A stretch of 64,000 nt of DNA from Colwellia sp. MB02u-6. Its GTDB lineage: Bacteria; Pseudomonadota; Gammaproteobacteria; Enterobacterales; Alteromonadaceae. Shown here piece by piece: positions 2,352 to 56,665 of this stretch. The stretch covers positions 1 through 64,000 of the forward strand of contig NZ_JACGVG010000029.1 in assembly GCF_014077095.1 (NCBI RefSeq), written 5' to 3'. The notes below the pieces were generated by a model, which worked only from the letters and a program-made list of their open reading frames with translations, was not told the origin of the DNA and did no database searches. Within the stretch, counting starts at the first letter, position 1; every line of letters begins with the position of its first letter. The position numbers were made by a program, and so were the translations under genes.

Positions 2352-2400
2352 TGTGGTCGGAGTAGCAAGATTCGAACTTGCGACCTCACGTCCCCCAGAC
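2352..2400 (-). repeat. Left attachment site: displaced 3' fragment of tRNA-Pro
   Basis: All 49 bases are identical to 56617-56665. Read on the minus strand it is the anticodon loop region, variable loop, T arm, acceptor 3' strand and CCA of tRNA-Pro(GGG). The D arm and 5' half are absent, and the sequence past 2400 is unrelated to the tRNA. It cannot make a tRNA by itself. It marks the left end of the island and, given its length and position, probably contains the integrase crossover site. Confidence 0.9.
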
Positions 2401-2639
2401 TCAGGGGCTGATTTTTAACTCATAAACAATTCCCATAAAGTCAGTTTAAAAACAAGAGCTTAGCGTTATTCGTTAAGTTGATGCTTTTGGACTGTTTTGC
2501 ATCTTTTTGCATTTTCCAGTGCGATATATGTGCGATGAGGTTACTTTAAACCTACGGGAAAATAATCATGTCAAAAAGTATATAACTAACTGTTAAAAAG
2601 AAAAAATACTCTGAACTTTTAAAGCTGTTCGGAGCAATA

Positions 2640-4151
2640 TTGTTTAATCCATCTCGTTTGAAAGAAGCCTCACTTTCAAGCGTACAAAACCAAATCAGAA
2701 AAAATTCAAACATCAACGAAGATGATTTAAAGCACATTATTGAAACGTGGTGGCAGGGAGGGCTGCCATATTTAACTTTAAATCAACTTCATGTATCTGG
2801 CCTCTCCATTCGACTGTATAAAAATAGGTTTAAAAAGTTGGGAAAAAACATCAAAGTTCTAAACGATGACGATCACGGCAGTGTTTATTATCGTTCACGT
2901 GATGGTAAAAATAGCAAAATGATCACAAACAAATTAGGCACTTTCTCACCAGAATCTTTTACAAATATGTTGGCGGCTGTTAAAAAAATTAAAGCGTCTA
3001 ACGAGCTAGGGATCAAGGTTTTTGAGAATCATATTACTGGCGGTACTGAAGTTGAGGCGAGTGCGGTTGAAGATTCTCTCATAACGTTAAATACATTTTT
3101 ACAGGGCGAATTCTTAGATAAAAAATTAGAAGAAAACCCTAAAACTGCCGCTAAAAAAGTCAAAGTTGTAATGCGGAACTTTCCCAAACTATTGAATTTA
3201 TTAATTAAAGATATAAATACTGAAGTTTTAAAGAAATGGTTAAAAACTAAGGAAAGAAAGTTAACACAAAGACAAATTAATGCTGCTGAAAGTCGCTGGG
3301 TGCTCAAACCATCAACCTTAAAAGAAGCTATTTGCACCATTATGTCATGTGTGCAGTTAGCTAAAGAGCAAGGCGTAATAAACGACCATGACCTATATAC
3401 GTTACCCAAGTTTAAAATGGACAATGAAATTATTCGTTATTTATCTCAAGAAGAATTAAGACTTTATCGTACAATGAATCAACGTAATGAGCGTAAGTTA
3501 AAGTTACGGAAAAGTACTATTTTACACCGCCAAGAAAGAAACTTAATAGCGCCGCCTCAGCTCAATGAATGTGCATTTGCAGATCATGTCACACCATTTA
3601 TCATTTTATTTAAAGAAACAGGAATTCGTCCTGGGACATTAATGAACTCAAAATGGACAGATGTAGATTTTGAATCTCGATTTTTTAGAATCCGAAAATC
3701 TATTGATAAAAGATCGCTCGCTAACTTTATACCTCTAAATGACTTAGCTTACGCCACATTAACCGAGTGGCGTAAGCACTATATTCATAAAAAATGCTCA
3801 AGGTTAATTGAAAATAAAGTAGATGCATGGCTGTTTCCGTCACCACAGTCACCTTCACAACAATTAACCACAATAAAAACAGCGTGGAGAAGCATCATCA
3901 AAAACGCTGAGATACATAACTTCAGGTTTTATGATCTTCGCCATGATTTTGCATCTAGGGTAATGATGCGCACGGGTAATATATATTTGGTCAGCCATCT
4001 ATTAAATCACCGTCAAATCGAAACCACAAAACGATACGCTCACCTGATGGATAACTCAAAACTATTAGCTGTACAAACTCTAGATGCGGATAGACAAACT
4101 GGCGCTTTGCCAGAATTTATGCGAAAGCGTGGGGTTATTTCGCAGGATTAA
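2640..4151 (+). CDS. Tyrosine recombinase / integrase of the island
   Basis: A 503-residue phage-type integrase; these enzymes join attP on a circular element to attB, commonly a tRNA 3' end. The C-terminal catalytic domain (about 310-485) shows the first Arg in ETGIRPGTL, the HxxR region as YDLRHDFAS, the histidine in LLNHRQ, and the catalytic Tyr in KRYAHL. The first His of HxxR is Tyr here, a substitution met in related integrases. The N-terminal part (about 90-270) is the likely arm- and core-binding region. I chose the TTG at 2640 because GGAG lies 5 bases upstream and no ATG fits. It reads inward from the left attachment site. No excisionase is recognised next to it. Confidence 0.93.
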   Translation: MFNPSRLKEASLSSVQNQIRKNSNINEDDLKHIIETWWQGGLPYLTLNQLHVSGLSIRLYKNRFKKLGKNIKVLNDDDHGSVYYRSRDGKNSKMITNKLGTFSPESFTNMLAAVKKIKASNELGIKVFENHITGGTEVEASAVEDSLITLNTFLQGEFLDKKLEENPKTAAKKVKVVMRNFPKLLNLLIKDINTEVLKKWLKTKERKLTQRQINAAESRWVLKPSTLKEAICTIMSCVQLAKEQGVINDHDLYTLPKFKMDNEIIRYLSQEELRLYRTMNQRNERKLKLRKSTILHRQERNLIAPPQLNECAFADHVTPFIILFKETGIRPGTLMNSKWTDVDFESRFFRIRKSIDKRSLANFIPLNDLAYATLTEWRKHYIHKKCSRLIENKVDAWLFPSPQSPSQQLTTIKTAWRSIIKNAEIHNFRFYDLRHDFASRVMMRTGNIYLVSHLLNHRQIETTKRYAHLMDNSKLLAVQTLDADRQTGALPEFMRKRGVISQD

Positions 4152-4212
4152 GTAAAAATTTCCCAAGCGTGTTTCTAGGTATATCTGAGGTCAACTAAAC
4201 TGAGGAAATATC

Positions 4213-4611
4213 TTGAAAAATAAATCGACTAAACAAGAAAATATTAATTGGCGCTACAAGCTGTTAAGAAAATCAAAGACCCCAACAAGGGATAAAGATT
4301 GCTTAAGGGTTTGTTGGTATTTTGATGAGGAAAGTACACAGGCTATTTATGAGTATAGGGATGAATGCAGTAGAACCACTTGTTTTGCAATAACAAATTT
4401 ATTGCAGCAAGAGCTTCCAGAATTTATGTCTAAAAAATATTTCTACCCTGATGAAAGGGCATTAGTATTTGGCTATTTTTTTGATGAAATCAGAGGTTTT
4501 ATCAAAGAAAATGTTGAAGATAATGACTTTTTTAACTTCTGCGGTGTACCCAAAGAAATATTTTTCTCTATCGAAAATCAGGATGCGCTATTAGCACTTT
4601 GCGAAAATTAA
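4213..4611 (+). CDS. Hypothetical protein downstream of the integrase
   Basis: Encodes 132 residues, charged and hydrophilic, with no signal peptide, membrane segment or motif I recognise. It is rich in aromatic and acidic residues in the second half (YFFDEIRGFI, DNDFFNFCG). The start is TTG with AGGAAA a few bases upstream, the same unusual start type as the integrase 60 bp before it, so the two may be co-transcribed. It is followed by a UUCG-loop hairpin. By position it could be an accessory gene of the mobile element, but nothing in the sequence shows a function. Confidence 0.6.
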   Translation: MKNKSTKQENINWRYKLLRKSKTPTRDKDCLRVCWYFDEESTQAIYEYRDECSRTTCFAITNLLQQELPEFMSKKYFYPDERALVFGYFFDEIRGFIKENVEDNDFFNFCGVPKEIFFSIENQDALLALCEN

Positions 4612-4624
4612 ACGTAAAACTATT

Positions 4625-4644
4625 AAGGGAACTTCGGTTCCCTT
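4625..4644 (+). terminator. UUCG-loop hairpin after the 4213-4611 gene
   Basis: Stem AAGGGAAC/GTTCCCTT, 8 bp, closed by a stable TTCG tetraloop. The following sequence is only moderately T-rich, so it may terminate weakly or protect the 3' end of the message. Confidence 0.5.
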
Positions 4645-5394: not shown

Positions 5395-8300
5395 CTATTT
5401 ATCTTGCTTTAACGTTATAACCACAGCATTAGCCCAGTTGGCACAGCTGTTGTTATTGCCCTGAGTACGTAGGCTTAATTTTTGTAAAGTACGTATATCA
5501 ATTTCGGGTTTTATCACCGTTGGCGCTTTGATTATGCCGCTGTTATATAACAGTTTATCGTCGCCAAAAATTTGGAAACTGATCTGGCCATCTACTCTAC
5601 AGCTATCATTAATACCAATATCCGCTCTAAATAGTTGAGCATTTTTTGGTAGGGTATAGTCAACATGGCTCTTGCCTCTAACACCTAAGCCTTTGCTAAA
5701 CTTTAAGCCGTTCATGTTCATGTCATCACTTTTACCTGATGTTGACGCAGCGCTATTAACGTAGATTTTACTCAAGCTTTCATCATGGTATAACCAGTTT
5801 ATATTAGATAAATAAACATTATGTTTAGATGTACCTGGCAGTAAATGCTCAATCAGTTTGAACTCACCAATAGTGGTCGGGTTAACTCGTTGTGCTTCAA
5901 ATGCTTTATAAGGTTTACTAAAAGCATCATCTTCTTTTGCTGCGGTGATCATCGGGTCGTTACCGCCAGAAGTCGATTGCTTTTGAGTGGTGAGCACTCT
6001 AAATCTGAATAATCGGCCAATGATGGGGTCGAACGTTACTTTTTGCAAACCTTTTTGTAATGCTAAAGTCCCTGTGTGGACAGGCTCGCCCCATTCTCCG
6101 TTAGTGTTCGCCATGTAAATTTCATAATCTTTTACTTGGCCATGCTCCCAATATTTATCATTGCGTGGTTGTATTTCAAAACCCGATATAACTCTTCTCT
6201 CACCAAAGGAAAGCGAAAATTCATGGGCACCTGTTTTTTGTGATTGATCTCTTACCGTTCTAAACCAAGTGTCTGGGTTGTTATCGAAGGCATTTTTAAG
6301 CGGATGACCTGGCTCTTCGTTAGGGCTATTTAAAATAACAAAACTATCGCTAGATATATTTGCGCCTAAATCAGGCATTTTAGGGTAACTGGCTGTTGTT
6401 GCTAGCGTTTTATTTACATCAATGCTTAGCTCAAATTCAAAGTCATTAAACACAGACGATTTTTCTGCTTTAATATAGACCACGCCATACTGACTATCTT
6501 TGCCGTACCACCAGCCAGATGAGCTCTGTTCTAATGCTACTTTAGTTTTTACTTGCAATAATTCTATACCATTGAGCTCTACCTGATTTGGTTTTACTCG
6601 GCTATGTACTTGCAGTTTGTAAACTCGCGCTAATTCCATGCCTTGGTATTCACCAACAACACCACCAATATTGACGCGTATATTACCCGCCGTATTTTTA
6701 GGAGCGGTGACGTTAAATTGCTGTTGGCTGAAACTGCCGTTTTTGTAAGCTCTAGTTTCACCATCATCTTCATATAAAGTAAATTCAGAATTGCCATGAG
6801 GATAGATGTCCAGGGTTAATTCGTCCTTTGGCACTTGGCCATCATATAATGACTCTGGGTACATTGGGATTATTGCCCCAGCACGCACTAATATCGGTAA
6901 TGTTTCCAGCTCCACTGGATAATCAATAAGTTTTCCTGCTTGAGGAGCCACAGTAACTTTGCCATCCCAATAGTCTATCCACAAACCTTCTGGTAGGTAT
7001 ATGTCTTTACGCCAACCTTGACTCGCAGTTTGACTACGAAAAACAGGGGCTACTAGAAAGTCTTTTCCAAGAAAAAATTGGTTTTTATATTTTTCGGTGT
7101 TGGCATTAGGATCATTCGGGTGATCCCACATTAACCCGCGTAAAATAGGGGCACCTGTTTGTTCGGCTTCTCTAGCATAGGTATACATGTAAGGCGTTAG
7201 GCGCATTTTTAGCTTTAAATAGCTACGATTGATGCTGCGATAAGGTTCTTCAAACCACCAAGGGTGCTTTCTTTCGGCTTTTGACCAACCCGACATACCC
7301 ATTAGTACAGGAGTGAAGGTTTTCCATTGTAAATCACGCGTATAGGTTTCTGGTGAACCACCAAATATGCCATCAACATCGCCAGTCGAATAAACTTGAC
7401 CAGATAAGCCAGAGCCTATTAGGGTGGAAATATGCCAGCGGATGTAATCCCAGCTACCGGATTGATCGCCAGTCCAGGTAACCGCATAACGCTGCATGCC
7501 AGCCCAACCCATAACGGTCCAAAGAAAAGGACGGCCGTCAGAGTTATCTAAAATACCTTGTGCCGCATCTTTATTCGCATCTAAGGCAAACTGATAGCCT
7601 TTACCTGTCCAGGCCACATCAAGCTTTTGTGCTCGAGTACCGGCGGTACCAACTTCCCAGCTAATTTTATCTACACCGTCTTCGGTCCATAAACCGGTTC
7701 TAAAACCGTATTTTTTTAATCCAGCAACAACTTCTGGTAGGTCGGTATAGCCACAACCGTAACCATCGTTGGGTAAAATCCATCCACCAGGCATATCGTG
7801 TTCACGGTATTTCGCGGCAACAGACAGAATAACATCTGGCGTAGTGCCCGTAGGACCATCACTCCAGCCATCAGGTACAGTACCTGGCTTTTTAATATTA
7901 TCGCCATCATTATAACAATCTGCATCGCCGTATTCTAATGCCCATCTAGGCAGTAATTCTGCTCGTCCTGTTAATTCAGTAAAGTTTGCTAAAACGTTTT
8001 TAATTGAATCACCAAAAAAGAAATAAGCATCAAAACGGTTCTCTTCGTGCGTGGTAGTAATATACTCCTGCGAACGAAAGTCATAACTACCATTAGCCCA
8101 AGTATTTCTTAATACACCATAGCCTTGAGTCGTCATATAAAATGGCGAAGGGCTAGGGCGGTCAAATTCTTCCCAGCCGCCTGAATAAGATATTTCTAGG
8201 GTTTTTCCTTTAAATTCAAATTGACCATTTTGTTGTCCGCCACCAAAAAAATGTTCAGCTGGTTTGGTACTCAAGGTTTGATAACTGTGATCCTTTGATA

Positions 8301-8712
8301 AGTCGATCGGTTTCAACTCTCGCCAAATCAAGGATTTATTATCTGACTTATATGCCTCAAATTTTAATGGGTCTTTGTAGATTCGAAGGGCTAACTGTGA
8401 TGTTTGTACTAAATGATAGCTATCATGGGTTGATAATTTGTAGTCGACGTTACCCAGCTGATAGGGCAAAACTATTTTAGCTTTATTGTTTTTTGCATCA
8501 ATTAATTGTTCATTAACACCAGCCCAAATTCTAACGACATCGTCCTTAATGAGTTCAATGGCCACGAGTTCATTATCATTTGTGGTGATTTCTATACGAT
8601 TATTTTGTTGCTTTATTGAAGCTATAGCCGCTAACTCTTTAGCATTTACTGTGCTGAAAAAAGTAGCGTAAACAGCAAGGAAGCAAAGGCATTTGGATAA
8701 CATATTTTTCAT
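5395..8712 (-). CDS. Secreted GH31 glycoside hydrolase with F5/8C and NPCBM modules
   Basis: Retaining alpha-glycosidase, probably exported. The signal peptide is about residues 1-24 counted from the ATG at 8712, chosen because AAGGA lies 5 bases before it. The GH31 barrel spans about 150-540 (numbering from the upstream ATG at 8730). Candidate catalytic Asp residues are D371 in KLDVAWTG and D422 in WTGDQ. A DUF5110-type beta domain is near 600-690, an F5/8C (CBM32-like) domain near 790-930, and an NPCBM domain near 970-1109. The tract STGDVDGIFGGSPETY resembles GH31 members active on alpha-GalNAc or alpha-Gal rather than starch. With GalNAc genes beside it I infer alpha-N-acetylgalactosaminidase or alpha-galactosidase activity; alpha-glucosidase is not excluded. 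Its own terminator follows. Confidence 0.88.
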   Translation of the reverse strand: MKNMLSKCLCFLAVYATFFSTVNAKELAAIASIKQQNNRIEITTNDNELVAIELIKDDVVRIWAGVNEQLIDAKNNKAKIVLPYQLGNVDYKLSTHDSYHLVQTSQLALRIYKDPLKFEAYKSDNKSLIWRELKPIDLSKDHSYQTLSTKPAEHFFGGGQQNGQFEFKGKTLEISYSGGWEEFDRPSPSPFYMTTQGYGVLRNTWANGSYDFRSQEYITTTHEENRFDAYFFFGDSIKNVLANFTELTGRAELLPRWALEYGDADCYNDGDNIKKPGTVPDGWSDGPTGTTPDVILSVAAKYREHDMPGGWILPNDGYGCGYTDLPEVVAGLKKYGFRTGLWTEDGVDKISWEVGTAGTRAQKLDVAWTGKGYQFALDANKDAAQGILDNSDGRPFLWTVMGWAGMQRYAVTWTGDQSGSWDYIRWHISTLIGSGLSGQVYSTGDVDGIFGGSPETYTRDLQWKTFTPVLMGMSGWSKAERKHPWWFEEPYRSINRSYLKLKMRLTPYMYTYAREAEQTGAPILRGLMWDHPNDPNANTEKYKNQFFLGKDFLVAPVFRSQTASQGWRKDIYLPEGLWIDYWDGKVTVAPQAGKLIDYPVELETLPILVRAGAIIPMYPESLYDGQVPKDELTLDIYPHGNSEFTLYEDDGETRAYKNGSFSQQQFNVTAPKNTAGNIRVNIGGVVGEYQGMELARVYKLQVHSRVKPNQVELNGIELLQVKTKVALEQSSSGWWYGKDSQYGVVYIKAEKSSVFNDFEFELSIDVNKTLATTASYPKMPDLGANISSDSFVILNSPNEEPGHPLKNAFDNNPDTWFRTVRDQSQKTGAHEFSLSFGERRVISGFEIQPRNDKYWEHGQVKDYEIYMANTNGEWGEPVHTGTLALQKGLQKVTFDPIIGRLFRFRVLTTQKQSTSGGNDPMITAAKEDDAFSKPYKAFEAQRVNPTTIGEFKLIEHLLPGTSKHNVYLSNINWLYHDESLSKIYVNSAASTSGKSDDMNMNGLKFSKGLGVRGKSHVDYTLPKNAQLFRADIGINDSCRVDGQISFQIFGDDKLLYNSGIIKAPTVIKPEIDIRTLQKLSLRTQGNNNSCANWANAVVITLKQDK

Positions 8713-8763
8713 TTTTTCCTTCTTAATCATTTTTAATGATATTTTGTGTGAAATATTTTTTCA

Positions 8764-9002
8764 GCTATCTGCGATAGCTTATTTTTCAGGCTTTTGATCT
8801 TGGTATCTCATTGGTAAAATAGCTGGCTGCAAGCGTACGCCATCATCGATTAGCTTATGTACTCGTACAGCACCAATTCAACACTGTTTCCTGTGATAAA
8901 CTCCCCGCATACCATTAAACACCAAGACAAACTTTGCCATCGAGTTCATTAAGGGTTTGCTGACAGGTCGCATCTGAATGTCCTAACATGATTTTAACGC
9001 CA
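8764..9002 (-). pseudogene. Decayed NagA/AgaA-type deacetylase fragment
   Basis: Read on the minus strand, three short segments in different frames match consecutive parts of the intact deacetylase at 29289-30479: GVKIMLGHSDATCQQT against GVKVMLGHTNANYQQT, VFNGMRGVYHR against VFNGMSGIHHR, and LIDDGVRLQPAI against VIADGVHLHPTI. The order is the same but stop codons and a frameshift separate them. Only about 80 of some 390 codons survive. It lies on the same strand as GH31 and just upstream, so an aga-type gene once stood here. Confidence 0.75.
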
Positions 9003-9168
9003 TGTTTTGGTCTTTAATCGATACCGTGGAAAGACCCTGTTTTTAGATTCAGCTAGCGACACTTACCTTGGTTAAAGATCAGTGGCACTCTGTTGTGCTC
9101 TCTTTGCTATGGTATTCATCTTCATAATGATCAAAAAATAACAATAACAATAACAACACTATATATTA

Positions 9169-9188: not shown

Positions 9189-9601
9189 TATATTTAATGG
9201 TTTTTTATTGCTTCGGTTTTGTTTTTAGAGCTAGTTAATTTGTCTTTTGATTTTGCTTTAGCTGTTAGCGCAATTGAAATAAAAAATGATTGAAAAAACT
9301 CGTAAGTGTTTGGCTATTAATATATTTTCGGTTTGTCCGAAGATTTTCCCTTGCAAAAGCTAAAATGAATTAAAGCATAACGGAGGCGAGTGATGGGTTG
9401 AATCAGAGAGTGGACATCCATTTTTCCGCAGTTAAATCGGCTTTTATCTTTGGATTAATGGCAAAAAAGTGGCGGATAGCCAAGGCAGTAAAACAGCCTA
9501 AAAATTTGAAATAAAGCAATATATAGGCTAGGCATAACATCATTGTTCTGCCGTTTATTCGTTGTAGCGATGGCTTGCGTACCCTGCATTATCTGAACGA
9601 G

Positions 9602-9657
9602 CCATATGTTATGAGCTAAGTGTTATGAACCATATGTTATGAGCTAGGTGTTATCGA
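9602..9657. repeat. 28-bp direct tandem repeat
   Basis: Two copies (9602-9629, 9630-9657) both beginning CCATATGTTATGAGCTA and identical at 25 of 28 positions. Function unknown. Confidence 0.8.
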
Positions 9658-9898: not shown

Positions 9899-12289
9899 TT
9901 ATTGCTCTTTGTTTATCGCAGAAATATTGATCGACGGCATAGGCAATTCCATTGCTGCTACCCGAGCAAGACTTGCTGAGGATACTGGTACACCCCAAAC
10001 GGTAAAGTGTTCGGTAAGATTATGACCGCTGATTTCGCTTAAAAATTCAAAACTTTTGTCATAACTTGCTTGATCAGATTGACAAACAGCGTCTTGAGCG
10101 TTTGTATCTAATGCTCTGAACTTACGATGAAGCTGTCGAAAAATATCCCAACCTTGATTTTCACCTGTACCCTCAAAAGCATCTTTAATTTGAATTAAAA
10201 ATATTAGTCTATCAAAGGGGTCGCTTAGATCATGAAAGTTAGCCAAAGATCCGCCCGCGGCAGCAATTTTATTAATCGCACTTGAATAACGTTTTTCAAG
10301 GCTGAGACGTGAGGTAATGTTATTTTTAGATTGAAAGTACAGTGGAAATAAATTAGTGGTCACTTCGCCACCGTAAACCATCCAGAAACATTTTTGTTGG
10401 TAGTTGTGACCGATTTCGTGCCATGTACCCCAATGTCCATCGCTGCTATTTTGTATTGCGTATGAGTTCCAACCAGGACTAGCCATGATAGGGTAGCCAG
10501 CGTGAGCAAAACCATAGGATATTTGTACATCGTCGACAATACGCGTTCTTAAGCTAGGTGCTCTATGTGGTCCAGAGGTTGCCTCTGAGTCGAATCCTGA
10601 TAAATCATGTATATCATCACGACCTGACTTGTATGCCGACATCAGCGCAGCAGGTTGGTTTACCTTAGCCATATCAGCTTTACTCATAGTAAGTGATACA
10701 TTATCGGTTTCCATCGTTCCCCAAGGCACATCTAAATCCTGCATTGCTTGCCATTGTTGATCTGTTGTTTCACCTAAAATGTAATAGGGTGCTTGTACAA
10801 CATTACCGATCTCTATATCCACTATAGCATCTATAGGTAAGGCGCCGGAATCAATAACCACAAGGCCTCCGTACTGGCTACGTAGTTCATTGAACCCGGC
10901 TTTAAGCGGTATATTCAAGTGAACATTTGAAAAACGTTCTAGATTAAACTCAGCATTACCAACGCCAAGGTTTAAAATGTCAGTGTGAAGATTGATTATC
11001 ACACTTAAGTTCTCGATAACGGCGGGATCAGCCGATTTTACATTGACTGAAATAATATCTCCTGCAGCAGCGTAAAGACCAGTGCTTTGCCAATGTTTAC
11101 GCTGTTGCCAACCTAGATGTGTTGGCTCGTAAAAATTACGATCTAAAGTAATGTTTTTACTAATTTTAGGTTCATTTGCACCAACAACCCCAGGAAAATC
11201 AATTATATTTCTTGGGTAGGGAAGTGCTTCGCTCAATGGTGTAATACGATTTAACACTCCTTTAGCTATTTCTATTTTGTTTTTTAATGCATCCTTTTTA
11301 TTGATAGGATACTGTACTTCACCACCGGTATATTCACTAATAAATTTTTCTGCATGAGAAACAATTAACCAACGTTGGTTAGCATCACCGTGAGTTGACC
11401 ATAAAATCACCGTTGAATTAGTCAAGTTTACGTCAAATGACACACCCGCTTGTGAGAAATTATCACCCTCAAAATCCCATCGTTGTTCACTACTTGCATC
11501 ACAGCTAGTCACTTTTAGACTGCCGACGTCCTGAGCAATACAAAAACCATTCGACTTATTTATCAGGCTACCATTTTTGGTATATGACCAAAGCTGTTCA
11601 TTTTTGCTTTTATCACAACTGTTCATAACTACATCATCGTCATTTGATATCCCAAGGCATAAATCAGGTTTACCTTGACTGATCAATAGCTGCTCAGTAA
11701 AAAGCTTTTCACTGTCTACTTCTTCAGAAACGAACAATTTATCGGTAATTATCCATTGCTGGTTGGCGTTACCATGTTGAGTCCATAAAATAAAGGAAAG
11801 CTCTTGCATATTGACATCAAATGCAAAGCCTTCTTGGCTGATGATCGAATTAGCGAAACTCCAAGTTTGCTCTAAGGATAAATTACAAAATTCTGGGGAT
11901 AGGGTTGCACCATCTTTGGCTCCGGCACTTTGCATACACATTTCGGTCGACACATTTTTAATGCTGCCGTCTTCAGCATTAAAGGTCCATCGCTGTTCGT
12001 CACTTTGTGCATCACATTTTGCCAATATTAATGTGTCACCCTTATCGGCAATACAATAATCAGTTGTGGCTTTACTTTGAATCATAAAATTTTCAAATGA
12101 ACCCGAAGTAGGCCCATCAGGTACAGGCTCAGGTTCAACTACAATAATACCGCTACCATTCCCTTCCCATGGCTGTGGGTTGGTTTCTTGTTCGCTGGTA
12201 TAATTATCGCCACAAGCAGCAAGTAAAATAACTAAACTCGTTAGCAATCGGTTTTTTGGTGTTACTGATTTGATATTGATTTTCATCAT
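9899..12289 (-). CDS. M60-like zinc metallopeptidase lipoprotein with two ricin-type lectin domains
   Basis: Members of the M60-like family (PF13402) cut glycoproteins, notably mucins, often next to O-glycosylated Ser/Thr. This 796-residue protein has a lipobox (LLAAC, Cys26), so it should be a surface or periplasmic lipoprotein. Two beta-trefoil lectin domains follow (about 66-187 and 200-312), each with QxW-type repeats such as NANQQW and DANQRW. The peptidase region has the gluzincin motif HEIGH at 624-628 with the third ligand E642 in YGGE. AGGG lies 8-9 bases before the ATG. It follows the nuclease-fold gene on the same strand, 173 bp apart. Lectins that bind Gal/GalNAc would fit the island. 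Activity on mucin is inferred from the family and context. Confidence 0.88.
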   Translation of the reverse strand: MMKINIKSVTPKNRLLTSLVILLAACGDNYTSEQETNPQPWEGNGSGIIVVEPEPVPDGPTSGSFENFMIQSKATTDYCIADKGDTLILAKCDAQSDEQRWTFNAEDGSIKNVSTEMCMQSAGAKDGATLSPEFCNLSLEQTWSFANSIISQEGFAFDVNMQELSFILWTQHGNANQQWIITDKLFVSEEVDSEKLFTEQLLISQGKPDLCLGISNDDDVVMNSCDKSKNEQLWSYTKNGSLINKSNGFCIAQDVGSLKVTSCDASSEQRWDFEGDNFSQAGVSFDVNLTNSTVILWSTHGDANQRWLIVSHAEKFISEYTGGEVQYPINKKDALKNKIEIAKGVLNRITPLSEALPYPRNIIDFPGVVGANEPKISKNITLDRNFYEPTHLGWQQRKHWQSTGLYAAAGDIISVNVKSADPAVIENLSVIINLHTDILNLGVGNAEFNLERFSNVHLNIPLKAGFNELRSQYGGLVVIDSGALPIDAIVDIEIGNVVQAPYYILGETTDQQWQAMQDLDVPWGTMETDNVSLTMSKADMAKVNQPAALMSAYKSGRDDIHDLSGFDSEATSGPHRAPSLRTRIVDDVQISYGFAHAGYPIMASPGWNSYAIQNSSDGHWGTWHEIGHNYQQKCFWMVYGGEVTTNLFPLYFQSKNNITSRLSLEKRYSSAINKIAAAGGSLANFHDLSDPFDRLIFLIQIKDAFEGTGENQGWDIFRQLHRKFRALDTNAQDAVCQSDQASYDKSFEFLSEISGHNLTEHFTVWGVPVSSASLARVAAMELPMPSINISAINKEQ

Positions 12290-14616: not shown

Positions 14617-14830
14617 CATTACTGTCACCTTTATCAGTGGTTCTATTAAGTGTTCAGACAATCAGACTATTACCTGAAAAATTTAACTTTGTTATTAGTT
14701 TATTATTTATAGCTTTTATTAGGTTTCAGTACAACGGATTTGTCTTCCGATATCTTTCAGCTGGTGTTGTATTAATAGGGTTATATAGACGTAGTCTTAT
14801 ATTTAATCCATTTAAATCATATGGTTAAAT

Positions 14831-19426: not shown

Positions 19427-19547
19427 TACGATTGTTAAACCTTTTATAGGCGCTGAGGCTAATTTATTCTCTATAAATATGTTTAATAGCTTGTTGCACA
19501 AGGATGTGCAGAGTTTTCTGTTCCTTTAAACCACCCTTATAATATTA

Positions 19548-25867: not shown

Positions 25868-25942
25868 TGATATAGTTTCGGTGTGTCCAATTGCTCACGT
25901 TAGCCTTGAGCAAATTATTTTACTTATTATATGGTTGGAAAA

Positions 25943-27238: not shown

Positions 27239-27240
27239 AA

Positions 27241-37665: not shown

Positions 37666-37729
37666 CTTGTGAAAGAAAATTTTGCTTGATAAGATCACTT
37701 GTGAAAGAACGGTTTGCTTGATAAGATCG
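37666..37729 (+). repeat. 32-bp direct tandem repeat before agaR-2, possible operator pair
   Basis: Two adjacent copies (37666-37697 and 37698-37729), 28 of 32 bases identical, each with CTTGTGAAAGAA and TTTGCTTGATAAGATC. Each contains a GAAAG unit as at the other candidate sites. The second copy ends 30 bp before the ATG, where a bound repressor would block agaR-2. Confidence 0.85.
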
Positions 37730-37759
37730 CAAGCAGAGCCTAAAATAAATTTAAAAATT

Positions 37760-49176: not shown

Positions 49177-49202
49177 TTTCAATAATTGTGACTTATAATA
49201 TT

Positions 49203-50249
49203 ATGACTATCGAGTTTGATCCGACAGAACACCCGCATCGAAGATATAACCCTTTAATTGATGAATGGGTATTGGTTTCACCTCATCGCGCCAAACGACC
49301 TTGGCAAGGGCAAGTTGAAAAGCTTGATGAGCAAGAAAAGCCAAAGTATGACAAAGACTGTTTTTTATGTGCAGGCAATACCCGCATCAATGGTGAAAAA
49401 AATGATGACTATAAAGACACCTTTGTGTTCACCAATGATTTTGCCGCAATCAAACCAGATACGCCGAGTGTAGTCAGTGATGATCCGCTTTTTAAAATGG
49501 CCACAGAGCAAGGCGAGAGTCGAGTTATCTGTTTCTCACCAGACCATAGTAAAACCTTGCCACAGCTTTCAATAAAAGAAATTACCCATGTTATTGATAC
49601 ATGGCAGAGTCAATGTGAGGTATTAGGGAAAACGTATTCATGGGTTCAGGTTTTTGAAAATAAAGGCAGTGTCATGGGCTGTTCTAACCCACACCCTCAT
49701 GGTCAGATTTGGGCACAACAGCAATTACCAACCCTAGTAATGAAAAAGCAAAATTCGCAGTTGGCTTACTTAGCGCAACATGGCAATAATTTATTGCAAG
49801 ACTATGTTGTGAGAGAAGTTGCAAATAAAGAACGTATTGTGGTGATAAATGAAGATTGGCTGGTTGTTGTTCCTTATTGGGCCGCATGGCCATTTGAAAC
49901 TTTGCTACTACCACGCTTTGCTGTGTCACGTATAACTGAGCTCAATAAAGCGCAAAAGTTATCACTCGCTGATATTCTCCAACAAATAACCATCAAGTAT
50001 GACAATTTATTTAATTGTTCTTTTCCTTATTCCATGGGGTGGCACGGTGCACCTTTTGATGGACAACAACATGATGAATGGACTTTACATGCCAGTTTCT
50101 TTCCTCCTCTATTAAGATCGGCCACGGTGCGTAAATTTATGGTCGGTTATGAAATGATGGCTGAAGCGCAACGAGACCTTACTGCAGAGCAAGCAGCGAA
50201 GAGGCTCCGTGATTTGCCAACAACTCACTATAAGAAGAATTACTCATGA
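49203..50249 (+). CDS. galT: Galactose-1-phosphate uridylyltransferase
   Basis: Leloir enzyme: UDP-glucose plus Gal-1-P gives UDP-galactose plus Glc-1-P. I take the ATG at 49203 (348 residues), because the protein then starts [18 protein letters not shown] as E. coli GalT does; an ATG 15 bases upstream is in frame. The HIT-type active site is [12 protein letters not shown], with the nucleophilic second His. Other marks are [11 protein letters not shown] and the C-terminal [20 protein letters not shown]. The zinc-ligand region CFLCAGN is intact. It ends with a 4-base ATGA overlap with galK, hence coupling. Confidence 0.96.
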
Positions 50250-51418
50250 ACTTTCCCGTTTCAGACCCACAAGACTTTAAACAACAAGCGCTTGTGCAAA
50301 TCTTGTTTAAACAGCAATTTCAGGGCTCAGCAGCGCTAGTTTGTCATGCGCCAGGCCGAGTTAACATCATTGGTGATCATACCGATTACAATGATGGTTT
50401 TGTGCTACCAGCAGCCATTAATTACGGTACCACCATTGCAGCATCAAAACGTGAAGACAGGATAGTAAAAGTATACGCTCATGACTGTGGACAACAAATT
50501 AATGAGTTTAGTCTTGACGACATTAGCTTTGATCAAGAAATGATGTGGAGTAATTATGTTAAAGGCACATTACAAGCGTTAATGAAAAAACACCCTGAAA
50601 TTAAAGGCGCGAACCTAGTGGTCACTGGAAATGTACCACAAGGTGCTGGTTTAAGTTCATCTGCCAGTTTTGAAATAGCTATTTTAAAAGCGTTTACCCA
50701 GCTTTATCAATTAGATTTAAATGGTGTTAATGCTGCGCTTATTGGTCAGCAAGCCGAGAATGATTTTGTTGGTTGTAACTGCGGCATTATGGACCAACTT
50801 ATCTCGGCCATGGGACAGCAAGGTCATGCCATGTTACTTGATTGCAAAGACCTATCCTTTGAAGATGCGCCTATTCCAGATGATTTAACACTGTTTATTG
50901 TTAATTCAAATGTTAAACGTGGTTTGGTTGATAGTGCTTATAACTTAAGACGTCAGCAATGTGAAGCGGTGGCTAAGTACTTTGGTGTGTCTGCCCTGAG
51001 GGAAGTGACCATGAATCAGCTTACTGCTGCCGAAGAGCAAATTGAGCCAGAATTGTTCAAACGTGCTCGTCACGTTGTTAGTGAAAATGCCCGTGCGGTA
51101 GCGACATTAAAGGCGTTAAAAGCCAATGATATGGCAACAATTAGTGCCGAGATGAAGGCGTCTCATATTTCTTTGCGTGATGACTTTGAAGTTACGACCA
51201 AAGAAATGGATGGCTTGGTTGATATGATTGATAGCGTCTTAGGTGACCAGGGCGGTGTTCGTATGACCGGCGGTGGTTTTGGTGGATGTGTGGTTGCTTT
51301 AGTGCCTAATGATTTAGTGACCAAGGTAACGGATATTATCAATAGTAAATATGAGCAAGAATTTGGCTTAAGCCCCAGTATTTATCACTGTACTGCATCA
51401 CAAGGTGCATTCAGGTAA
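50246..51418 (+). CDS. galK: Galactokinase
   Basis: Phosphorylates galactose at C1 with ATP. The 390-residue GHMP kinase shows the galactokinase signature [20 protein letters not shown], the ATP-binding motif [13 protein letters not shown], and the third motif [20 protein letters not shown] holds the catalytic Asp. The start overlaps the galT stop (ATGA), as usual in gal operons. The next gene, the sodium-sugar symporter, starts 78 bp later without a terminator, so it should be in the same transcript. Confidence 0.96.
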
Positions 51419-51496
51419 TTGGCTAAATATAGCATCGAATAAAATTAAAACTCGCGCAAAAAAATAATTATAACTAAAAATTAAGGGTTACAAACG

Positions 51497-53071
51497 ATGG
51501 ACTTTACAAATAAATTGGGGACGATAGATAGCACCATTTTTATTGTCTATGTCATAGGGCTGCTGTGCCTTGCCTTATGGGTTTCTCGTAATGAGAAAAA
51601 AGAAGGTGCGAATACAGAAGATTACTTTTTAGCTAGCAAGTCACTGCCTTGGTGGGCTATAGGGGCTTCGTTAATTGCCGCAAATATTTCAGCAGAACAA
51701 ATTATTGGTATGTCAGGCTCTGGTTACGCCATTGGTTTAGCGATTGCCTCTTACGAATGGATGGCCGCCATTACCTTGGTATTAGTCGGTAAATACATGT
51801 TGCCTATTTTTTTGGAAAATAAAATATTTACCATGCCGCAATACCTTGAACAACGTTTTGATAATAAGGTAAAAACTACCATGGCTATTTTTTGGCTAGC
51901 GGTATACACCTTTGTTAACTTAACCGCGGTGTTATGGTTAGGTGGCATGGCCATTGAAACGGTAGCAGGTGTTGATTGGATGTTCGGCATGATATTTTTA
52001 GCCGTATTCTCTGTTGCTTACTCTTTATATGGCGGCTTAAAAGCGGTTGCTTTTACCGACATATTACAAGTGGTGTTATTAGTCTTTGGCGGTTTGTTAC
52101 TGAGTTATTTAGCCTTAGATGCCGTGGCTGATGGTCAAGGGTTTTTAGTCGGCTTTGGGATTCTTACCAATACAATGCCTGAGCATTTTGACATGATATT
52201 AAGTCCAGATAATGACCATTACATGAGCCTGCCAGGTATTTCTGTGCTAATTGGTGGCATGTGGGTAATGAACTTTAGTTATTGGGGTTTTAACCAGTAT
52301 ATTATTCAGCGTGCTTTAGCGGCTAAAGATTTAAAAGAAGCACAAAAAGGTATTGCTTTTGCAGCCTACCTTAAATTATTAATGCCACTTATTGTGGTAT
52401 TACCCGGCATTGCAGCGGTAGTGCTTTATCCGACATTAACTACCCCGGACCAAGCCTATCCCTCAATGATGGCATTAATGCCCGTTGGTATTAAAGGGTT
52501 AGTTTTTGCTGCATTAGTTGCCGCGATAGTGTCTTCGTTAGCGTCAATGACCAATAGTATTTCTACCATTTTTACTATGGATCTTTATTCACGTTTTAAG
52601 CCGAACGAGAGCCAACGTCACTACGTACATATTGGTCGTATTGCTGCGTTAGTTTCTTTATGTATCGCCTTAATTGTCGCTCAGCCATTATTAGGTAAAT
52701 TTGATCAAGCGTTTCAATATATCCAAGAGTTTACCGGTTTCTTTACCCCTGGCATCGTTGTTATATTTGTTATGGGTATGTTCTGGAAACGTGCAACATC
52801 AGCGGGCGCATTGTCAGCAGCTTTAGGCTCAGCAGTATTTTCGTTAGTACTTAAATTTACGTGGCCTGAGCTACCATTTATGGATCGTGTTGGCTTAGTC
52901 TTTTTACTCTGTTTAGCGCTTTGTTATGTGGTTTCCATGTTAGGCAAACCTAATACTGCCGATAGCAGTGTGAGTTTAGATCAGGTGAGCTTTGCAACAA
53001 CTAAGTCATTTAATGTCGCCGCCATAGGGGTAGTACTTATCCTTACGGCTTTGTACGCCACTTGGTGGTAA
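51497..53071 (+). CDS. SGLT-type sodium/galactose symporter
   Basis: Inner-membrane sodium:solute symporter, 524 residues, with about 14 hydrophobic segments. SSS-family features: short N-terminal helix, EDYFLASKSLPWWAIGASLIAANISAEQIIG, YSLYGGLKAVAFTDILQ, and in the middle FAALVAAIVSSLASMTNSISTIF. The QYIIQRALAAKDLKEAQKG loop is typical of sugar members such as vSGLT. Placed inside the gal operon it most likely imports galactose freed by the GH2 enzyme; glucose is possible. A terminator-like hairpin follows it, before galE. Confidence 0.92.
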   Translation: MDFTNKLGTIDSTIFIVYVIGLLCLALWVSRNEKKEGANTEDYFLASKSLPWWAIGASLIAANISAEQIIGMSGSGYAIGLAIASYEWMAAITLVLVGKYMLPIFLENKIFTMPQYLEQRFDNKVKTTMAIFWLAVYTFVNLTAVLWLGGMAIETVAGVDWMFGMIFLAVFSVAYSLYGGLKAVAFTDILQVVLLVFGGLLLSYLALDAVADGQGFLVGFGILTNTMPEHFDMILSPDNDHYMSLPGISVLIGGMWVMNFSYWGFNQYIIQRALAAKDLKEAQKGIAFAAYLKLLMPLIVVLPGIAAVVLYPTLTTPDQAYPSMMALMPVGIKGLVFAALVAAIVSSLASMTNSISTIFTMDLYSRFKPNESQRHYVHIGRIAALVSLCIALIVAQPLLGKFDQAFQYIQEFTGFFTPGIVVIFVMGMFWKRATSAGALSAALGSAVFSLVLKFTWPELPFMDRVGLVFLLCLALCYVVSMLGKPNTADSSVSLDQVSFATTKSFNVAAIGVVLILTALYATWW

Positions 53072-53097
53072 ACAAAACAAAACAAAACATAAAAAGA

Positions 53098-53121
53098 AAA
53101 AGGCCAAGTTATCGGCCTTTT
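53098..53121 (+). terminator. Hairpin between the symporter gene and galE
   Basis: Stem AAAAGGCC/GGCCTTTT with an 8-base loop, 20 bases before the galE ATG. The GGCCTTTT side looks like a terminator, so galE-galM may be expressed at lower level or from read-through. Confidence 0.65.
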
Positions 53122-53140
53122 ACGTTTCAAGGAGCAAAAA

Positions 53141-54166
53141 ATGAATGTATTAGTCACTGGAGGCGCTGGGTATATTGGCTCACATACCGTTTTATCGTTA
53201 TTAGAAAATAATTATGACGTTATCGTGTATGACAATTTAGTCAATTCAAGTATTGAGTCTATTAATAGAGTTAAGAAATTGACCGGTAAGTCAGTAACCT
53301 TTGTTGAAGGTGATATATGTGACACAGATAAACTTAACTACCTATTTATAAGGTTTCAAATAGATGCAGTTATTCACTTTGCTGCACTTAAAGCGGTTGG
53401 AGAATCGACGAAAATACCGTTAAGCTATTATCAAAATAATGTCTACGGATCTGTTTGTTTGTTAGAGGTTATGCAACAACATAATGTGCATAATTTTATT
53501 TTTAGTTCATCTGCCACGGTTTATGGTGAAGAAAATGAGGTGCCTTATGTAGAAACAATGAAATTAGGTACTCCTTCAAGCCCTTATGGTGCGAGTAAAG
53601 TCATGGTAGAGCGTGTGCTGGCTGATTTTGCACTCTCTGATAATAACTTTAGAGGCGTATCTTTACGCTACTTCAACCCTATTGGCGCACACGAAAGCGG
53701 TACAATAGGTGAAGATCCGAAAGGGATTCCCAACAACCTTTTACCTTATGTCGCCCAAGTCGCTGTAGGTAAACGTGACAACCTTGCTATCTTTGGTGAT
53801 GATTATCCAACTAAAGATGGTAGCTGCGAACGAGATTATTTACACGTGATGGATTTAGCCCAAGGCCATGTTGCAGCTTTAGATTGGTTAAATCGCCAGA
53901 GTGATTTTAGCGGTGTTGAAGCCTTTAATTTAGGCACAGGTAATGGTGTCTCAGTGTTTACAATTGTAAAGACATTCGAGCAAGTCATTAATAAAAAAGT
54001 ACCCTTTGAAGTATCCCCAAGAAGAGCGGGTGATCTACCTGCTTTCTGGGCCAACGCCAGTAAAGCCAATAAAGAGTTGAATTGGCAAGCCGATAGAAGT
54101 TTAACGCAAATGATGACTGATACTTGGCGTTGGCAGTCAAACAACCCAAATGGATATTTAGTATAA
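53141..54166 (+). CDS. galE: UDP-glucose 4-epimerase
   Basis: Interconverts UDP-galactose and UDP-glucose with bound NAD. The 341-residue short-chain dehydrogenase-like protein starts with GGAGYIGSHT (NAD binding), has the FSSSATVYG stretch with catalytic Ser and the YGASK Tyr-Lys pair. C-terminal marks are ERDYLHVMDLAQGH and NLGTGNGVSV. AAGGAG lies 6 bases before the ATG. The stop codon shares its last A with the galM start (TAATG). It may also act on UDP-GalNAc/UDP-GlcNAc; that cannot be read from the sequence here. Confidence 0.96.
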   Translation: MNVLVTGGAGYIGSHTVLSLLENNYDVIVYDNLVNSSIESINRVKKLTGKSVTFVEGDICDTDKLNYLFIRFQIDAVIHFAALKAVGESTKIPLSYYQNNVYGSVCLLEVMQQHNVHNFIFSSSATVYGEENEVPYVETMKLGTPSSPYGASKVMVERVLADFALSDNNFRGVSLRYFNPIGAHESGTIGEDPKGIPNNLLPYVAQVAVGKRDNLAIFGDDYPTKDGSCERDYLHVMDLAQGHVAALDWLNRQSDFSGVEAFNLGTGNGVSVFTIVKTFEQVINKKVPFEVSPRRAGDLPAFWANASKANKELNWQADRSLTQMMTDTWRWQSNNPNGYLV

Positions 54167-55173
54167 TGGCTACCGTGACTTCACCATTGGCAACTGAATT
54201 GGAAACAGTGGTATTAAGCAATGACTATGGCATGTCAGTCGAAATCATCAACTTTGGCGCCAGAATTAAGTCTATTAAATTTCCAGTAAATGCTAAACCA
54301 ATGGAAATGATACTGGGGTATGCTTCAGCACAAGACTACTTAACTGATGAGTTTTATTTAGGCGCAACCTGTGGCCGAGTGTGTAATCGTATTGCTGGCG
54401 GTAAGTTTGAGCTTGAGGGTCGTCAATATCAATTAACACAAAACGACGGTGATAACTGTTTACATGGCGGCGATGATAACTTTTCATTGCGGTATTGGCA
54501 AAGAGATAAACAAACACATAGCAAGAGTTCAGTCACTTTAGTATGTACATCTGTTGATGGCGACCAAGGCTTTCCGGGCACGCTAAATGTTTCGGTCACA
54601 TACCAGTTAAGTGCTGACAACAAGATCAGCATAAAATACTTAGCCAATACTGACCTAGCCACGCCAATTAATTTAACCAATCATGCTTATTTTAATTTGG
54701 CTGAAAAAGACGGCCAATCGCTCTACTTGCAAATGATGGCATCGGCATTCCTCGAAAGTGATGGCGAAAATATACCCACGGGTAATATTATTAAAGTGGC
54801 ACAGACAGATTATAACTTTAGAGAGCCTGCCTGTGTTGGTAAAAGGCAGCAACAGACTTTAGATAAGTCTATTAAAGAGAAACACGGTTATGATCATTGT
54901 TTTATTTTAGATAATGCTCCTTTTACGAAGCCTAAAGCAGTACTTACTTCGCTTAAAAATCAAATTAGTTTATCGGTATATACAGATCAGCCCGCTATTC
55001 AACTTTATACGGGTTTCTACTTGAATGATAAATTTACTGCCTATCAAGGTTTGTGTTTAGAAGCACAAAATTATACAGATGCGGAAAATAATAAAAACTT
55101 TCCCAGTAACGTATTGCAGCCAAATCAGCAATATCAGCGGGAAATCATTTATAAATTTGAATCCATAAATTAG
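54166..55173 (+). CDS. galM: Aldose 1-epimerase (mutarotase)
   Basis: Converts beta-D-galactose, the form set free by beta-galactosidase, to the alpha anomer that GalK needs. The ATG at 54166 (335 residues) is chosen because it forms a TAATG overlap with galE and the family N-terminus follows (MATVTSPLATELETVVLSN); a TTG 42 bases upstream is unlikely. Motifs: NFGARIKSI, GRVCNRIAGGKF, LHGG, LTNHAYFNL with the catalytic His, and GLCLEAQNYTDAEN with the catalytic Glu. It is the last gene of the GH2-gal operon. A weak inverted repeat, CTGAGCA/TGCTCAG (55174-55218), follows. Confidence 0.95.
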   Translation: MATVTSPLATELETVVLSNDYGMSVEIINFGARIKSIKFPVNAKPMEMILGYASAQDYLTDEFYLGATCGRVCNRIAGGKFELEGRQYQLTQNDGDNCLHGGDDNFSLRYWQRDKQTHSKSSVTLVCTSVDGDQGFPGTLNVSVTYQLSADNKISIKYLANTDLATPINLTNHAYFNLAEKDGQSLYLQMMASAFLESDGENIPTGNIIKVAQTDYNFREPACVGKRQQQTLDKSIKEKHGYDHCFILDNAPFTKPKAVLTSLKNQISLSVYTDQPAIQLYTGFYLNDKFTAYQGLCLEAQNYTDAENNKNFPSNVLQPNQQYQREIIYKFESIN

Positions 55174-56235
55174 CTGAGCAGTTATTTATTTAACTTAAGT
55201 AAACACTGAGTTGCTCAGACAATATTAATTTACATTTTTATTTAATATTCGAAATTAGTAATGGTATGTCTTCACTTTAATTGCACCTAACTAAGGGGTC
55301 TATATTGATCACTTACGTTTTAAATAACAATATAAATAGATAGATTACGACGGTTAATACTTTTGGCCCATTTACTGAGTCTACGGTCATACTTTTTTTG
55401 GTATTTGTACTTTTTAAGTCTTCTGTCATAACCAATTCGTTTATCTATGATATACACACCACCAATGCAAACAGTTTGTATTGCTTTATCTGATACACCC
55501 TGTTTTGAGTTTCTGTCCATAGATTACTCTTTTTATGCCGTTACTTTGATTATAGCTAAAGTTGAGAAAAAACAACAAAAAACACTAAGATGACAACCCG
55601 AATGCCGTAGAATGAACGTTATTTTTTAGATCAATTAAAGAGCAAAAGTCAAATATTTCTGGCCTTTTGTTTAACTGTTTTCACAACGTTAAAAACAAAC
55701 GCCCCCTATGGAAATTTGTTCGTTTACCATTGCCGTTCGCCTTGTTAGTGAAGGTTGTAGTAAGAGAAACCGTTCGGAACTAATGTCGACCCATCTTCAC
55801 TAGATCTAAAAGGCTTGCGCGGTCATATTGCTCTTTTCTAGCCCAGTTGATGCCCATAATATTTGAATTTTTCTACTCTAAGCTTCTAGCGAAGAACGGA
55901 CGTTCGCACACTTTCACGTCGATTACTGGTTTTCTGAGATAGGGGACATTCACTGACCACCAATAAAGACCATGCCAAGGAGGTCACATTTTAAATATTA
56001 TTCAAAGTCTGCCCGTACATTCAAGATGTACATATTTATCTTGTTGCGCCATGAGAGCCAAAAATTGCGTGTAATATTTTTCAATAATTTGAAAAAAAGA
56101 GTTTGCTCTGGTTTATGAGGTACCTAGCTTAAGATCTTTTCTTCTGCGATCTTTTACAAGCGACATACATCCATCAGCACTTAAGTTGCTATACAGACTA
56201 GCCTAAGCTGCTCCCTAGGCTAGTCCCCTATGCTA
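55174..56235. other. 1-kb gap at the right end of the island
   Basis: Contains one doubtful small gene (55320-55520, minus). The remainder has no open frame, IS match or RNA gene that I can support. Confidence 0.45.
55320..55520 (-). CDS. Doubtful small basic hypothetical protein
   Basis: Encodes 66 residues, strongly basic in the second half (IGYDRRLKKYKYQKKYDRRL). AAGAGTAA lies before the ATG, a weak ribosome binding site. No family recognised. The composition could suit a nucleic-acid-binding peptide, but a chance frame in AT-rich DNA is equally possible. Confidence 0.3.
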   Translation of the reverse strand: MDRNSKQGVSDKAIQTVCIGGVYIIDKRIGYDRRLKKYKYQKKYDRRLSKWAKSINRRNLSIYIVI

Positions 56236-56517
56236 TTATTTTACAATGACAGAGTTACATAAAAATTGGCTATTAGGTTTTAGCTGTTTTGGTAAACACA
56301 GTCCCTCAGGCAAATTTTTCTTTTTTAGTTTATTGAGCTGCTTACGAGCTTCTTTTTCAGACATTGGAATAAGCCCATCAGACTGTTTATATGAACAAAA
56401 TATAAATTGTTCATCCTGACTATTAAATTGAGCCTCAGGCTCCTGGCCTACAGCAATGAAACCGCATACTGTTGAACCATCTGGAACAGATTGGCCAACT
56501 TTGAGCTGAAAGGTCAC
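56236..56517 (-). CDS. Hypothetical protein at the right island end
   Basis: Encodes 93 residues with no signal peptide or membrane segment. It has a mixed beta-like N-terminal half (VGQSVPDGSTVCGFIAVG) and a basic helical middle (KEARKQLNKLKKKNLPEG). Four Cys residues are present. Being the last gene before the intact tRNA it could belong to the element's own functions, such as excision, but I see no winged-helix or excisionase motif. Start not certain: no strong ribosome binding site. Confidence 0.45.
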   Translation of the reverse strand: MTFQLKVGQSVPDGSTVCGFIAVGQEPEAQFNSQDEQFIFCSYKQSDGLIPMSEKEARKQLNKLKKKNLPEGLCLPKQLKPNSQFLCNSVIVK

Positions 56518-56577
56518 TGTTTCGCTTTGGCCTTGTTTTGGGTTGCAGGTTATAGGTTTGGTATAAAGTCAGGCAAT

Positions 56578-56601
56578 AAAAAAGCCTTGTAAAAACAAGG
56601 C
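56578..56601 (-). terminator. Island-borne terminator of tRNA-Pro
   Basis: Stem GCCTTGT/ACAAGGC (56584-56590, 56595-56601) with a U run on the minus strand, 18 bases past the tRNA 3' end. It is similar but not identical to the hairpin beyond the left repeat (2314-2343), so the island brought a replacement. Confidence 0.85.
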
Positions 56602-56616
56602 TTTAATTATTTATTG

Positions 56617-56665
56617 TGTGGTCGGAGTAGCAAGATTCGAACTTGCGACCTCACGTCCCCCAGAC
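56617..56665 (-). repeat. Right attachment site within tRNA-Pro
   Basis: 49 bases identical to 2352-2400. The repeat covers the tRNA from the anticodon loop to the CCA end plus two bases beyond. The 5' part of the tRNA, 56666-56695, is not repeated. Integration here keeps the tRNA whole. Confidence 0.9.

Follow-up and report, generated by a model that had tools for sequence, protein, structure and literature searches.

The tRNA-Pro(GGG) locus and its empty site

The window analysed here is a 64-kb stretch of Colwellia sp. MB02u-6 (contig NZ_JACGVG010000029.1, hereafter C29, positions 1 to 64,000), and its subject is a 54-kb region at a tRNA-Pro(GGG) gene, which is read below as a probable integrative genomic island. 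The left neighbours of this region are UmuD- and UmuC-type genes and its right neighbour is a DUF3413 (YejM-like) gene, in agreement with an earlier note, made from the letters of the DNA alone, that had placed an island between umuDC and yejM. The features at the two ends are as follows.

2352..2400, minus strand: displaced 3′ fragment of tRNA-Pro, the left direct repeat and distal attachment (att) site; the left flank aligns to the tRNA-umuC interval of congener G012
2520..2536, minus strand: arm-type-like site of 17 bp, ATCGCACATATATCGCA, between the left repeat and the integrase; a near-identical copy lies near tRNA-Pro in congener G009
2640..4151, plus strand: tyrosine recombinase (Pfam Phage_integrase, E 5e-21)
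4213..4611, plus strand: open reading frame (ORF) of 132 amino acids (aa) after the integrase; no significant match in the Pfam or PHROGs scans
56571..56616, minus strand: island-borne terminator-like stretch adjoining the intact tRNA; resembles the tRNA-Pro flank of congeners G003 and G004
56617..56665, minus strand: right direct repeat, within the intact tRNA-Pro(GGG) (tRNA 56619-56695)

The 49-bp perfect direct repeat that had been noted at both ends in the same orientation is indeed present as exact copies at 2352-2400 and 56617-56665 (two matches at up to 3 mismatches; none in 100 shuffles), and its 43-bp core, at up to 3 mismatches, occurs at these two sites only across the 4.01-Mb genome. 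The sole tRNA detected in the window by ARAGORN is tRNA-Pro(GGG), at 56619-56695 on the minus strand, and the left repeat copy corresponds to its bases 31-77 plus 2 bp past the tRNA end, so that the intact tRNA on the right and the 3′ fragment on the left were both recovered as described. Read from the tRNA, the identity starts with the final base on the 5′ side of the anticodon stem, showing that the shared block comprises the anticodon loop and all that lies 3′ of it; crossover in the anticodon loop is presumably the reason for this start point. A tyrosine recombinase gene 240 bp inside the left repeat was also found, as a Phage_integrase frame with a possible start at TTG 2640.

The locus was then compared among relatives. 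The yejM gene is present in the own genome and in 15 of the 16 congeners, the exception being G007, whose genome is 66% complete, and tRNA-Pro(GGG) adjoins yejM in all 30 loci fetched, own included. In five of the 15 congeners having yejM (G005, G010, G011, G012 and G014) umuC lies at most 400 bp from it, and the same holds for G040 (L019), which belongs to a different genus in the family. The nearest relative found is G012 (YejM 98% identical), which shows the order umuC-terminator-tRNA-Pro-yejM without the 54 kb. When the flanks of the window were joined minus the 54 kb, they aligned with this empty site at 93% identity over 860 bp, through the repeat, indicating that the sequence left of 2352 is the former 3′ flank of the tRNA. 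Taken singly, the left flank matches G012 at 93.9% over 2018 bp from position 352 on (of the first 351 bp only 103-196 match), and the right flank matches at 96.4% over 2148 bp. The prediction of the earlier note that some relatives would lack the 54 kb was thus borne out in G012 and, as compact loci, in four further congeners. Past insertion of the island at tRNA-Pro is well supported by these alignments; comparison establishes the post-insertion end state, from which we infer that a circular form existed and recombined.

The alignment with G012 further implies that the terminator-like stretch at 56571-56616 arrived with the island. This stretch matches the tRNA-Pro flank of G003 at 95.7% over 46 bp and that of G004 at 95.5% over 44 bp, with G001 and G002 similar. 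This suggests a congeneric chromosome as the last seat of the island or as the source of its edge.

The remaining congeners are more varied. The umuC-yejM spacing is about 1.5 kb in G006, 5.2 kb in G009 and 20.6 kb in G001; no second tRNA fragment was found in these three genomes, and no integrase was found among 10 neighbouring proteins scanned in five genomes, so these loci give no evidence for islands of this kind. For G002, G004 and G016 the best umuC match (64-65%) is away from this locus; G003 has a 68% match some 12 kb off in another orientation, and G008, G013 and G015 have distant umuC matches only, the G008 contig stopping about 2 kb beyond the tRNA. An IS1595-type transposase gene lies about 0.2 kb downstream of tRNA-Pro in G009 (L085 18417-19301).

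In an alignment with 13 homologues (27-37% identity), the integrase has a longer N-terminal frame and keeps the box-I Arg, the box-II Arg, the later His and the Tyr, following the usual box names of tyrosine recombinases. Matches at E 1e-40 or better occur in 13 of 394 genomes of the order, own included, with 31-38% identity over parts, and no tRNA was found at any of the 13 loci around the homologues (flanks of about 1.5 kb). A tblastn search of phages and plasmids returned distant integrases only, the top-listed at 30% and 28%, and a scan of viral contigs gave 7 pattern matches and no relative.

The arm-type-like site has a near-identical copy beside tRNA-Pro in G009 (G009:C1:4073933-4073949), followed by similar ATGCAAA repeats, and a weaker copy beside tRNA-Pro in G001 (G001:C1:2242533-2242549). 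Across 17 genomes, at up to 2 mismatches, the motif gave 22 matches versus 27 for a reversed-pattern control; since the window and G009 supplied the pattern, the exact matches there arise by construction, and the other 20 of the 22 carry 2 mismatches. Because the control exceeds the motif, the motif is uninformative genome-wide and only its position by tRNA-Pro counts, which hints that related elements used the same tRNA-Pro in other species.

Cargo of the island

Twenty-four island ORFs were scanned with Pfam (the 23 larger ones without antisense overlap and a 93-aa ORF near the right end) and eight with PHROGs at E 0.1; of the remaining ORFs below 120 aa, most lie outside both scans. The cargo recognised in this way, in which GH stands for glycoside hydrolase family, GalNAc for N-acetylgalactosamine and CBM for carbohydrate-binding module, is listed below.

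5395..8730, minus strand: GH31 with F5/8C and NPCBM domains, probable alpha-N-acetylgalactosaminidase (Pfam; solved-structure matches)
8782..9007, minus strand: decayed nagA remnant adjoining GH31 (tblastn E 5e-14, two frames with stops)
9899..12289, minus strand: M60 peptidase with ricin-type lectin domains and HEIGH motif (Pfam)
12463..14661, minus strand: 732-aa protein, relative of the endonuclease/exonuclease/phosphatase (EEP) family, probably a lipoprotein as judged by eye
14918..15679, minus strand: AgaR-type repressor 1 (NCBIfam AgaR, above cut-off)
16493..19426, plus strand: TonB-dependent receptor, only the plug domain recognised (Pfam)
21127..24525, minus strand: surface protein with six F5/8C (CBM32-type) domains (Pfam)
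25931..27238, plus strand: GatZ/KbaZ-like protein (Pfam E 3e-188)
27235..28362, plus strand: AgaS-like galactosamine-6-phosphate deaminase/isomerase (458 bits, below the NCBIfam cut-off of 529)
28385..29296, plus strand: ROK sugar kinase, probable GalNAc kinase (Pfam; below equivalog cut-offs)
29289..30479, plus strand: NagA/AgaA-type deacetylase (above the TIGR00221 cut-off)
31157..32785, minus strand: extra phosphoglucose isomerase (Pfam)
33082..34434, minus strand: major facilitator superfamily (MFS) sugar transporter, GluP subfamily, NagP-like (above the gluP cut-off, below the NagP cut-off)
35421..36884, plus strand: GH109, probable alpha-N-acetylgalactosaminidase (Pfam; 6t2b E 3e-142, 2ixa E 2e-81)
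37682..38539, plus strand: AgaR-type repressor 2 (NCBIfam AgaR, above cut-off)
40027..44592, plus strand: 1521-aa surface protein with PKD, cytochrome c peroxidase-like and NPCBM domains
45729..49085, plus strand: GH2 beta-galactosidase (Pfam)
49188..55173, plus strand: GalT, GalK, sodium:solute symporter, GalE and GalM (Pfam)

By family only, the island thus brings together an alpha-N-acetylgalactosaminidase, a beta-galactosidase and an M60 glycopeptidase, and, again at family level, AgaR, AgaS, deacetylase, kinase, KbaZ/AgaZ and transporter. The aga pathway presumably proceeds by phosphorylation, deacetylation, deamination/isomerisation and the tagatose steps. The best solved-structure matches of GH31 are 6m76, 7f7r and 7f7q (E 2e-112 to 2e-111), of which 7f7r and 7f7q are named GH31 alpha-N-acetylgalactosaminidase; 6m76 and 7f7r are, we take it, of Enterococcus origin. 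For the six F5/8C domains of the protein at 21127, the matches are to modules from galactose oxidase, hyaluronidase and sialidase entries, along with one that is named as a family-32 module. The 1521-aa protein ends in a tail that we take to be GlyGly-CTERM-like. The description of the cargo as purely catabolic has to be relaxed in view of the lectin-bearing M60 peptidase, the EEP-family relative and the cytochrome/PKD surface protein.

The phosphoglucose isomerase is one of four matches found in its own genome at E 1e-40, another being a congener-like 69% copy on contig C31; the island gene is thus an extra copy, and replacement of core genes was rejected. A prophage was likewise rejected, since no phage structural genes were recognised with Pfam (the PHROGs scan gave integrase matches and two weak unknowns), as was an integrative and conjugative element, since no relaxase or type IV secretion genes were recognised among the Pfam-scanned ORFs. 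The ORF at 56236-56517 gave no identifying match in the scans.

The distribution of the cargo genes is uneven. GH31 was found at E 1e-60 in 13 of 395 family genomes, own included, 10 of these 13 belonging to genus g75 and none to the 16 congeners; the M60 gene in 10 of 295 family genomes and in none of the 15 congeners listed; the gene of the 732-aa protein in 7 of 295 family genomes; and the KbaZ-like gene, at E 1e-10, in one of 17 genus genomes. GalT, in contrast to these, occurs in 7 of the 17 genus genomes, own included, with the best match (82%) in G009, and the gal module matches a congener at 74% nucleotide identity over 5.0 kb.

Among the best 80 of 224 stretches with GH31 relatives in the named collection, the closest (75%) is from an uncultured gammaproteobacterium (CAKZQF010000230, L108), in which TonB receptor, GH109, AgaR, KbaZ, AgaS, ROK, NagA, GH31 and MFS genes lie in a row. 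There, an intact nagA directly precedes GH31, at the same place where the window has its decayed nagA piece; the intact nagA of the island lies 20 kb from that piece, and two AgaR genes are present. The simplest reading of this arrangement is that two aga clusters merged in the island.

Interpretation and rival explanations

Islands that target tRNA genes by means of a tyrosine recombinase are a known class, and the anatomy of this one is that of an ordinary tRNA genomic island: the tRNA 3′ end is duplicated, an integrase lies at one end, relatives show the empty site, and adaptive cargo comes with no transfer genes of its own recognised. It differs from the class in that the integrase adjoins the displaced fragment rather than the intact tRNA, and in the integrase itself, given its low identity to homologues, its longer N-terminal frame and the Tyr that it has for the box-II His. 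Taken together, the region is probably a 54-kb integrative genomic island in tRNA-Pro(GGG) whose cargo serves the breakdown and use of O-glycosylated proteins. A tyrosine recombinase like that at the left end would have linked a circular form of this region with the 3′ half of tRNA-Pro(GGG), the island's own copy of bases 31-77 keeping the tRNA whole at the right while the old 3′ end was displaced to the left. In the proposed use of the cargo, CBM32-type and lectin domains would hold the substrate, GH2 would take off galactose, GH31 and GH109 would take off the core alpha-GalNAc, and the M60 peptidase would cleave the glycopeptide after sugar removal. The products would be imported by the TonB receptor, MFS transporter and sodium symporter. 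Judged from the families, GalNAc would then pass through the ROK kinase, deacetylase, AgaS and KbaZ-like protein, and galactose through GalM, GalK, GalT and GalE, under the control of the AgaR repressors.

The GalNAc part resembles the aga regulon reportedly described in Shewanella by Leyn et al. (2012), with which AgaR, AgaS, deacetylase, KbaZ-like protein, kinase and transporter are shared. The same set is shared with the aga (GalNAc) regulon of Escherichia coli (PMC3668189). Unlike these proteobacterial regulons, the island couples the pathway to enzymes that degrade glycans at the surface, to an M60 peptidase and to a gal module, has two AgaR genes and has no recognised KbaY. A second point of comparison lies in clusters of L108, Massilia, Lysobacter, Stenotrophomonas and others, where, at a large share of the compared loci though not at every one, GH31 lies near AgaR, KbaZ, AgaS and ROK, often also with NagA and GH109; no M60, gal-module or integrase match was found at E 1e-10 in the stretches of L108-L207 (for L108, 13.8 of 25 kb). 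A further parallel is the mucin-inducible polysaccharide utilization locus BT4240-50 of Bacteroides thetaiotaomicron, which PMC11992087 ties to mucin and GalNAc use and describes as holding GH2, GH109, M60L, CBM32, a GalNAc kinase and a transporter; on that description, the island shares with it the GH2 beta-galactosidase, GH109, M60-like peptidase, CBM32, GalNAc kinase and inner-membrane transporter. This overlap makes O-glycoprotein use the best reading of the cargo from its gene families, sharper than the label "aga/gal". However, the island differs from BT4240-50 in several respects: it has a TonB receptor but no SusC/SusD pair, no SusD-like match being found in the Pfam-scanned ORFs; its GH31 lies inside the cluster, while that of B. 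thetaiotaomicron, BT3169, lies elsewhere according to PMC11992087; and it adds aga-type and galactose pathways, on an integrase island in another phylum. It is a tentative idea that this single transferable element covers almost every stage in the use of O-glycosylated animal-type proteins, beginning with peptidase and glycosidases at the surface, continuing with import and ending in central metabolism, that it could make its host a mucus feeder in one insertion, and that it is a counterpart of BT4240-50 assembled independently outside Bacteroides. No paper describing this island by title or abstract was found within the library and terms searched.

Several observations weigh against parts of this reading. 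The open frame of the integrase is 2586-4151, with GGAG just upstream of TTG 2640; the first ATG of the frame, at 2568, is followed after five codons by an in-frame TAA at 2583, so that the start is uncertain and the gene may be impaired. The His of the box-II HxxR motif, present in 13 of 13 aligned homologues, is Tyr here, which counts against present mobility and not against past insertion. The arm-like motif was found at the left end of the window and not at the right, and no excisionase was recognised in the island. The integrase may thus, as its sequence reads, be impaired now and possibly inactive, and the present mobility of the island is doubtful. As the earlier note had also stated, no transfer genes were seen: no transfer gene, relaxase, type IV secretion or conjugation gene was recognised among the Pfam-scanned ORFs, so that movement between cells would need a helper or transduction. 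The composition of the island lies within the host range, without difference (dinucleotide distance 31-62.5 in 11 windows of 5 kb, the last reaching 0.8 kb past the island; mean 42, standard deviation 14 and maximum 78 for the rest of C29). As for function, the AgaS, ROK kinase and NagP assignments fall below equivalog-type cut-offs, no KbaY/AgaY-type aldolase was recognised among the Pfam-scanned ORFs (a host aldolase was not searched for), and no sialidase, sulfatase or fucosidase was recognised among them, suggesting that the island could deal with capped mucin only partially. Finally, the gal-module relatives in congeners sit at chromosomal loci away from tRNA-Pro, so the cargo has no single origin. 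By these comparisons the cargo is a composite, which leaves arrival of the full 54 kb in a single step no more than plausible.

This mixed ancestry leaves room for accretion, in which tRNA-Pro would first have received a smaller integrase island, with the gal module (about 45-55 kb) and further pieces following through recombination or another insertion. Such a history, partly compatible with the island reading, is possible without being the likelier one: it would fit the congeneric relatives of the gal genes at other loci, the lack of relatives of the KbaZ-like, GH31 and M60 genes in the congeners, the divergence of the two AgaR copies (49% identical to each other) and the decayed second nagA, whereas only two tRNA copies are present in the window and no transposase was found among the ORFs scanned with Pfam and PHROGs. 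It is also possible, again without being the likelier reading, that the target is another GalNAc/galactose-rich polymer, such as a bacterial or algal polysaccharide, and not animal mucin. Many of the best 80 of the 224 GH31 relatives come from Undibacterium, Massilia, Duganella, Lysobacter and Rheinheimera, genera that live mostly in fresh water or soil, and the missing sialidase and sulfatase point the same way; on the other side, the combination of M60, GH109, GH2 and CBM32 agrees by family with a mucin locus that has been tested, and GH31 enzymes active on mucin GalNAc are reported, both in PMC11992087.

Two further explanations bear on the insertion itself. Deletion across direct repeats in the relatives would likewise leave a clean empty site, as expected if the 54 kb were ancestral here and had been lost elsewhere by recombination between the repeats. 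However, the KbaZ-like and GH31 genes are absent from all 16 congeners, the site is compact in five congeners and in G040 of another genus, and the integrase adjoins one repeat, so that loss was ruled out as highly improbable. A false join of two tRNA-proximal contigs might be suspected because the window begins at the first base of its contig, leaving a left chromosomal flank of just 2.35 kb, and because parts of the outer 351 bp of that flank have no match in G012. Both flanks nevertheless match adjoining G012 sequence, 49 bp of repeat would be little to cause a false join, and C29 is 217 kb long; an assembly error was therefore rejected, its probability being slighter still.

If the island reading is true, a whole niche (binding, cutting, import and catabolism) lies in one tRNA-targeted insertion, and a change of diet could be tested as a one-step event, for which the empty site of a close relative offers a natural with/without pair. 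Outside gut Bacteroides, the locus would also be a case of GH31, GH109 and an M60 peptidase combined with aga/gal pathways.

Minor features of the cargo region

The 732-aa protein has no direct Pfam match of note, and its assignment follows from PF03372, found in 4 of the 4 homologues scanned (homologues from 2 further genomes lay outside that scan), and from a weak profile match to the exodeoxyribonuclease 5cfe (E 0.008). Its AlphaFold model is unusable (mean predicted local distance difference test score 34.8), and a scan of genome contigs for this protein yielded no relative among its 21 pattern matches. Between the TonB receptor and the CBM32-type protein, a stretch of about 1.65 kb (19427-21076) holds no ORF of at least 60 aa. 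Between the M60 and GH31 genes, short direct repeats run in 14-bp steps at 9599-9654.

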